Source: Thioclava atlantica
GTDB taxonomy: Bacteria; Pseudomonadota; Alphaproteobacteria; Rhodobacterales; Rhodobacteraceae
Assembly (NCBI RefSeq): GCF_000737065.1
Contig: NZ_AQRC01000008.1
Coordinates: forward strand, 1-64,000
Reading direction: 5' to 3'
DNA: 64,000 bases
Shown piece by piece: positions 34,827 through 35,531 of the stretch. Below the pieces are notes generated by a model that saw nothing but the letters and a program-made list of their open reading frames with translations, did no database searches and was not told where the DNA came from. Position 1 is the first letter of the stretch. The number at the start of each line of letters is the position of its first letter. Both the position numbers and the translations under genes were made by a program.

Positions 34827-35531
34827 CTACGCAATGCTAAAAATTGAGGGATTTTCTAGTGTTTCAATGTGTTTGAGCGTGATCCTGCGGGATCTAAATG
34901 AATGAGTGGGGTGATTATGCACGAGGATCAGGGCCGAGGCGTTCAGCTCGAGCGCCCGCTTCATCACCTCGCGCGGATAGACGGGCACATGATCGACCGT
35001 TCCGCGCGCCTGTTCCTCATCCGCGATCAGGACGTTCTTGCGATCGAGCATGAGGACGCGGAACTGTTCGGTCTCGGAATGCGACATCGCGGTGTGGCAG
35101 TAATCCAGAAGCGCGTGCCATGAGCTCAGGACCGGCCGCTCCATCACCTTCGAACGCGCGAGGCGATGGGCGGCAGCCTCCACGATCTTGAATTCCCGGA
35201 CCACCGCCTCGCCGACGCCGCGCACCTGATGCAGCCGGGCAGGCGGGGCCGAGATCACCCGGCCGAAATCACCGAATTGCTCGATCAGCCGCCGGGCGAG
35301 AGGTTTCACGTCCTGCCGCGGCAGCGCGCGGAACAGCACGAGTTCGAGCAGTTCGTAATCGGGCAGGGCAGGCGCTCCGCCCTCCATGAACCGCGCCCGC
35401 AGGCGCTGGCGATGATCGCAAAGATAGGAAGGCAGCTTGTTTCTCGCAGGACGACCGGTGACCGGCGCTGGCGCGGCCTCGCCGAACAGGGGCAGGGGGG
35501 CTTCGTTGAAAGATGCAGGGCGGCGCTTCAT
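34827..35531 (-). pseudogene. radC: radC interrupted by the ICE (chimeric C-terminus)
   Basis: RadC/YeeS-like JAMM-domain proteins normally run [14 protein letters not shown] plus about 40 more residues. Here 234 residues begin normally (helix-hairpin-helix region RGVGEAVVREF, JAMM region MLDRKNVLIADEEQARGTVDHVPVYPREVMKRALELNASALILVHNHP). They then switch to 26 unrelated residues (THSFRSRRITLKH...) encoded by ICE DNA. Two of the metal-site residues (Ser, Asp) and the C-terminal strands are missing, so it is probably inactive. ATG 35531 is preferred over 35543 because GGAG directly abuts the latter. Confidence 0.88.
34905..34920. other. Right attachment site (ICE/radC junction)
   Basis: On the minus strand radC reads GTGCATAATCACCCC, encoding V-H-N-H-P as in normal RadC. 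From about 34907 onward the codons no longer encode the [10 protein letters not shown] continuation. The core sequence must overlap CATAATCACCCC (34908-34919). The exact crossover cannot be set without the other end. Confidence 0.7.

Follow-up and report, generated by a model that had tools for sequence, protein, structure and literature searches.

The 64-kb window examined here, the whole stretch of DNA that was analyzed, carries on its minus strand a radC ORF that runs from 35543 to 34827 and encodes 238 amino acids. Its start had been put at 35531, which is the second ATG of this ORF. Pfam searches found the UPF0758 N-terminal domain (PF20582) and the RadC domain (PF04002), the latter over residues 140 to 215, which correspond to positions 2 to 77 of a 121-position profile; the NCBIfam model TIGR00608 covers the ORF at positions 1 to 171 of 218. 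What is left thus falls short of a complete JAB domain with a full JAMM motif. Past the HNHP residues of that motif, exactly 26 residues, THSFRSRRITLKHIETLENPSIFSIA, precede the stop codon. These matches bear out the initial annotation, which described a RadC that follows its family through HNHP and then switches to 26 residues encoded by ICE DNA.

The codons of HNHP form a 12-nt core, CAYAAYCAYCCN (Table 1). Next after radC on the chromosomal side are ORFs of the window that we take, from their sequences, to be dnaJ and dnaK. On the other side, ~120 bp beyond the end of the radC ORF and in the same orientation, lies the gene of a tyrosine integrase with an arm-binding domain. It belongs to PF00589 and adjoins attR at one end of the element, as befits an ICE. 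Farther in are a gene for a UvrD-type helicase with a Top1 zinc ribbon (30467-33334) and, adjoining it, an AbiEi/AbiEii-like pair (DUF6088, PF08843; 28738-30340).

Table 1. Features of the split radC locus and its element (positions are those of the window unless contig C6 is named).
Feature	Coordinates	Strand	Basis
Right part of the ICE; remainder on C22 (trb genes) and C6 (left end, HTH_17 gene, attL)	1..34916	.	Synteny with G467, contig comparisons
TraG/VirD4 coupling protein	581..2587	-	PF02534; NF010450 (IncP-type TraG), 1233.7 bits
RlxS-like relaxase (DUF3363)	2745..4820	-	PF11843; NF041267, 649.1 bits, below the cut-off of 850
TraF-like S26 peptidase	6217..6861	-	PF10502; TIGR02771, 97.0 bits, cut-off 100.25
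ParA partition ATPase and replication initiator (PF10134)	7525..9479	-	Pfam/NCBIfam
Tyrosine recombinase (integrase), 413 aa	33469..34710	-	PF00589, PF13356; PF22022 just below its cut-off
26-residue element-encoded tail of chimeric RadC, stop codon included	34827..34907	-	ORF list
RTCMCG repeats resembling integrase arm sites, mostly spaced at 10 bp, next to attR	34848..34907	-	Repeat counts versus shuffled stretches; integrase binding putative
attR core CATAATCACCCC, codons of HNHP; position 3 apparently host-derived, position 6 onward apparently element-derived	34908..34919	-	Pairwise locus comparison; attL counterpart CACAATCATCCC
radC 5' part (N-terminal region plus the beginning of the RadC/JAB domain), up to the last codon before HNHP	34920..35543	-	ORF list, PF04002, PF20582, TIGR00608
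attL core CACAATCATCCC	C6:12041-12052		Core search, matches attR core

Gene content and class of the element

By the sum of its parts, the element measures ~75 kb, plus a probable Tn3-type transposon, and extends over three contigs, C8 (that of the window), C22, and C6, whose order was deduced from synteny with the element of genome G467 and from a 39-bp sequence that two contigs have in common near their starts. Besides the genes of Table 1, the segment from 581 to 9479 contains a lytic transglycosylase gene; deeper in the element are genes for a ParB-like protein, a strawberry-notch-type helicase, and ArdC, as well as the AbiE-like pair. C22 (28,123 bp) provides trb/T4SS genes (TrbI, TrbL, VirB8, a TrbE-like ATPase, and a T2SSE-type ATPase), and its right end runs into the start of the window, as judged by synteny with the G467 element. 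Genes for a relaxase, a coupling protein, and type IV secretion, as expected of an ICE, are thus present, with the C22-C8 linkage deduced from that synteny. An HTH_17 protein encoded just inside attL (C6:11701-11931) is presumably the excisionase. A HipA-like kinase gene is also found on the element (11833-13113).

The 39-bp sequence, which reads GGGGTCTGCTGCCGGACGGTGCTAAATCCTACGCTAAGC when reversed, occurs near the starts of both C6 and C22 (C6:25-63 and C22:25-63). In our reading it resembles a Tn3-family terminal repeat, and a transposon therefore probably lies between these contigs, inside the element. C6:2061-10726 and C22:7253-13479 hold, by sequence reading, probable metal-related cargo with two P-type ATPase-like ORFs, an ABC transporter set, and a PepSY-like ORF. 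A second T4SS ATPase gene, of the VirB4 type, is located elsewhere in the genome (G000:C11:117510-118094). We rejected the VirB-type gene on C11 as part of the element's transfer system in favor of the trb genes on C22; a BLAST comparison of C11:105001-125000 with the G467 region yielded no similarity at an E value of 1e-20.

ICEs of the ICEMlSymR7A/Tn4371 type have a backbone of RlxS-type relaxase, TraF, TraG, trb, and replication/partition genes. All have counterparts here, RlxS and TraF being recognized by Pfam domain and likeness, with NCBIfam scores under their cut-offs. As far as its sequence tells, the element is a conjugative ICE of this type. With Tn4371-family ICEs (PMC2789088) it shares a Ti/RP4-like transfer system, a tyrosine integrase, and plasmid-maintenance genes, but those ICEs, as portrayed in the available text, use attB sites of their own (TTTTTCAT-like) rather than radC, and some carry RadC-like genes as accessory cargo. 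With its core, CAYAAYCAYCCN, in radC, our element stands outside the Tn4371 family in the strict sense, which calls for a TTTTTCAT-like attB.

The missing half of radC and the empty site

If an ICE had entered radC, the missing 3' part should lie at the element's other end and begin with the same core, as the initial annotation predicted. It does so at C6:12041-12199, on another contig of the same genome, in a reading that ends in EGYV followed by a stop codon: inspection of the left end for the codons that follow HNHP located them in this fragment, which includes the attL core. Searched with the RadC family, the genome showed two partial matches, one being the fragment in the window and the other C6:12005-12190, which aligns with profile positions 59-120; no intact RadC was found in the whole genome. 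The pattern named beforehand as speaking against an insertion, an intact radC elsewhere and no radC fragment at the left end, is thus the reverse of what was found. With these two partial matches only, an element-borne intact radC making up for the lost one in this genome was also rejected.

Fusion of the flanks at the core yields 260 uninterrupted codons whose product is similar to the intact RadC of G254, which is the only other member of the genus among the sampled family genomes. Its radC is uninterrupted, and no match to the integrase was found in it at an E value of 1e-40. In the G254 locus, the window from 34908 outward corresponds to positions from 5518 upward and C6:12036-12200 to positions 5534-5370, with C6:13104-17468 following on the C6-flank side. 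Both flanks map side by side in G254 and overlap only at the core; therefore, they were once neighbors. The element is accordingly bounded, within an interrupted target, by attL and attR with related cores (Table 1), and G254 represents the empty site.

Recurrent insertion and the point of exchange

Integrase relatives were sought in 295 genomes of the family and 385 of the class, and ten genomes, this one included, encode an integrase at least 74% identical to the one in the window. In eight of the ten (G000, which is this genome, G263, G467, G359, G651, G551, G344, and G388), radC is present as two halves divided at HNHP; for the 3' half of G651, the match is weak (E value, 2e-4), and a stop follows 12 residues beyond HNHP. 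Both halves lie on one contig, ~42 to 186 kb apart, in five genomes, namely the one-contig genomes G359 and G651 as well as G467, G344, and G551. Among the genomes with a split radC, only G263 and G551 have a second, intact RadC. G617 has a 3' radC fragment only, with no radC 5' part beside the integrase, and G538, whose contig begins inside the integrase gene, gave no RadC match. G045, with an integrase only 36% identical, gave no RadC match either.

Since the T. atlantica sequence is a draft of 46 contigs with the radC halves on different contigs, one might suspect an assembly artefact, or else a dead pseudogene beside an unrelated integrase. Such an origin of the split is hardly credible: both halves are open and each ends at the common core, synteny with G254 holds on both sides, and the same split occurs in the five genomes just named. 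The artefact reading is already contradicted by these independent genomes, and the one-contig genomes G359 and G651 led us to reject it.

Insertion at radC is just as recurrent in public sequences. In a scan with the integrase alignment, in which radC-like flanks were judged by similarity score, 70 of the 77 testable loci among the best 80 of 222 relatives are at the radC motif, a count that overlaps with the 8 of 10 above because some of the best-80 loci apparently come from the same strains as sampled genomes (e.g., L067 and G263). In 69 of them, the 5' part of radC has the core at its end, and L054 lies in a radC whose core carries one change; L060, L068, and L074 fell outside the testable set because their upstream sequences are too short (152, 2, and 196 bp). 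The check for other ICEs with related integrases in radC was therefore positive, and the Mesorhizobium loci of the scan likewise have this integrase at the HNHP site.

The other 7 of the 77 testable loci (L023, L041, L058, L042, L073, L080, and L027) are outside radC. L023, in Pannonibacter carbonis, sits in an AlgH-family gene (PF02622; L023:5654-5884), again with an NHP-coding core. L041 lies in an ORF without an assigned family, in a genome with an intact radC, and the genomes of L080 and L027 contain full RadC matches. At L058, where an HTH_17 gene precedes the core as at the left end of our element, no RadC match was found in the genome, and the locus may represent either a tandem copy or a circle. 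L042 is on one contig with L077, and L073 is in one genome with L076; L077 and L076 are copies in radC, and L042 and L073 are probably tandem or second copies. Integrase matches also occur in four plasmid records (pPAN2, a G467 record, and two partial Bradyrhizobium matches), and the Paracoccus pantotrophus pPAN2 copy has the exact core without radC beside it. Sequences with a like core outside radC, i.e., the AlgH-family gene, one ORF, and plasmid pPAN2, thus appear to be used at times.

Several minor observations concern these loci. In Ensifer sp. MPMI2T, ~24 kb of a single contig separate the two elements of the integrase family (L042 and L077), of which one is in radC; they form a probable tandem array. 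On pPAN2, the annotation places two anti-phage genes of the Qat type, qatB and qatC, directly after the related integrase (L145:8046-9925). In Pseudochelatococcus contaminans (L062), the element is in a divergent, possibly accessory radC (DSALMYPLEVVKEALRLNAAAVILS), and mobile radC genes may thus also act as sites.

P. carbonis (G675) bears on mobility as well. There, two stretches of the element, of 17,798 and 2,135 bp (nearly 20 kb together), match the window at 100% as rounded, and 2,126 bp are without mismatch from window position 34916, which is core position 4, onward. A near-identical element in an unrelated host therefore implies recent movement. This genome has element ends both at a split radC (L137 and L141) and at the AlgH-family gene (L023), the simplest reading being that the element is present twice, the AlgH-family gene serving as a secondary site, and that the assembly collapsed the repeat; a mixed culture is possible instead.

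Where host sequence gives way to element sequence was read from the third codon positions of the core. In this genome, attR (CATAATCACCCC) and attL (CACAATCATCCC) differ at positions 3 and 9, both third codon positions. The two cores differ in 7 of 8 genomes with both halves, always at third codon positions only, a tolerance partly built into the search, whose pattern allowed no other changes. The exchange point was located with 33 non-independent pairs from 30 loci (element side, at least 88% identity; host side, less than 90%), drawn from 77 radC-type loci. Agreement at core position 3 was no better than in shuffles (19 of 33 pairs; shuffle mean, 22.5), while it reached 30 of 33 at position 6 (mean, 21.9; 24 of 2000 shuffles as high), and 27 of 33 at position 9 (mean, 17.0; 4 of 2000 as high); position 12, with 31 of 33 (mean, 27.2), did not discriminate. 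Since agreement clearly exceeds the shuffles at positions 6 and 9 but not at 3, the element appears to supply the AAY-CAY-CCC codons at attR. The host-to-element switch would then fall between positions 3 and 6, inside the His-Asn codons, with the element apparently bringing its own Asn-His-Pro codons; because variation is confined to third codon positions, it is placed only between these two positions, the exact strand-exchange overlap being finer than the data resolve.

Two earlier statements are thereby refined. The insertion had been said to cut the JAMM motif after P; the motif is indeed cut, but the switch in the DNA lies in the His-Asn codons, as the element carries the NHP codons. The integrase had been said to target a conserved sequence coding for the catalytic motif. 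This agrees with the use of the same radC site in 70 of the 77 loci, but the 12-nt word itself varies at third codon positions among the intact radC genes of this analysis, and the integrase appears to recognize a DNA core that is tolerant at these positions. In addition, 67 of 82 loci have at least two RTCMCG repeats no more than 60 nt from the core, versus 0.1% of shuffled stretches, with a spacing of 10 bp in 73 of 76 cases; the repeats presumably bind the integrase.

We propose that the tyrosine integrase, presumably bound near the arm-like repeats at the right end, recombines attP of the circular element with attB of radC and so would insert the conjugative ICE into the 12-nt core CAYAAYCAYCCN. 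The right junction would keep the host codon of the first His and take AAY-CAY-CCC-ACT from the element, and the left junction carries the remaining radC. RadC ends as a chimera without the motif residues that follow HNHP and the C-terminal third of the domain. Excision, which the HTH_17 gene beside attL presumably assists, would join the radC halves again. As a whole explanation, integration of an ICE of the Tn4371/ICEMlSymR7A type by its tyrosine integrase at the HNHP core of radC has, in our estimate, a probability of about 0.94. The sequences themselves show the two radC halves, a same-genus genome with an empty site, repeated use of the site, where the switch lies, and a near-identical element in an unrelated host.

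Known radC insertions and the fate of RadC

ICEs at radC in Alphaproteobacteria are already in print, and the event is well supported but largely familiar. In Mesorhizobium, radC is a listed integration site of ICEs and IMEs with the same type of transfer genes (PMC8627217). Like our element, these are alphaproteobacterial, belong to the ICEMlSymR7A type, and carry trb as well as rlxS genes; the available text of that source gives the site as adjacent to radC and describes no JAMM cut. In Firmicutes, Tn554-type transposons such as Tn6188 (PMC3788773) use one conserved radC site, downstream of a conserved motif. However, as described in the accessible part of that paper, Tn6188 is not an ICE but a transposon of 5,117 bp whose transposase genes are the trio tnpABC, and it lies between bp 540 and 541 of radC with 6-bp junction sequences. 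Here, instead of tnpABC, a single tyrosine integrase adjoins radC, followed by the helicase and the AbiE-like pair.

Further recombinase-bearing elements, RIT elements and islands, interrupt radC in Cupriavidus, Bordetella petrii, and Macrococcus (PMC2864759, PMC3414803, PMC6008420). RITs are recombinase trios, that of Cupriavidus being inside the radC of a Tn4371-like ICE, and the portion available on the Macrococcus island gives no JAMM-motif cut. A prophage in radC has been discussed together with the idea of competence sabotage (PMC4774983), and RadC figures only as an element-carried gene in what PMC12595487 and PMC3864950 offer in excerpt. Literature searches on radC in Rhodobacteraceae, and on radC with natural transformation and JAMM, found no papers. 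The switch inside the His-Asn codons, the host breadth, and the secondary site in the AlgH-family gene were not met in the consulted portions of the cited literature.

The chimera is without 44 of the 121 positions of the RadC domain profile and has also lost the Ser and Asp of the JAMM motif. From this lost part of the domain, it is probably inactive (the nearest solved relative by sequence is 2qlc). The element-encoded tails in 69 loci have nine lengths (1, 2, 4, 7, 14, 18, 19, 23, or 26 residues) and are not conserved; the tail is therefore taken as incidental, and a selected tail was rejected. A chimera that keeps a function, such as DNA binding via its N-terminal region, with the tail as a selected replacement end, is accordingly very unlikely. 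The N-terminal region of the window RadC is whole, and dusA-specific islands, the work of an integrase family likewise devoted to one conserved housekeeping gene, do supply a replacement gene end (PMC4482086). Yet those islands, according to the text at hand, are mostly at the 5' end of dusA and bring a replacement 5' end, whereas the radC element cuts off the 3' third of the domain without replacement. Moreover, the tails are largely translated arm-like repeats, and that of the close relative G467, whose integrase is 99% identical, has 2 residues.

RadC loss seems tolerable: from tallies alone, 29 of 295 genomes of the family have no RadC match, as do 17 of the 260 near-complete ones. The function of RadC itself is, in the accessible part of PMC3788773, unsettled. 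It is unlikely that the target is favored because RadC loss helps the element, for instance through less natural transformation and hence less removal of the element by recombination. Use of the same site in 70 of the 77 testable loci would fit such an intragenomic conflict, the sense in which PMC4774983 discusses mobile genetic elements in radC and other competence genes. However, the genomes without a RadC match speak against it, RadC is, in the text available from that paper, not always apparently essential for transformation, intact second copies coexist in G263 and G551, and non-radC sites with a like core are also used. More broadly, and still as a doubtful proposal, a dedicated alphaproteobacterial integrase lineage may have settled on the metal-binding-motif codons and tolerate synonymous third-position changes, so that radC would be usable in almost any host; it would regularly remove RadC, perhaps to the benefit of the element, e.g., against its loss by natural transformation.

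Insertion at the HNHP core thus offers a clear, recurrent case of an integrase that apparently reads the codons of a catalytic motif under conservation, and for it the two att sites, a same-genus empty site, the switch position, and a secondary site are known. It makes integrase specificity and the tolerance of synonymous changes easy to test, and natural radC-split strains can be used for asking what RadC does. In G359, two C-terminal radC fragments lie 2 kb apart (C1:3341137-3341265 and C1:3343265-3343420), perhaps as traces of successive insertions.
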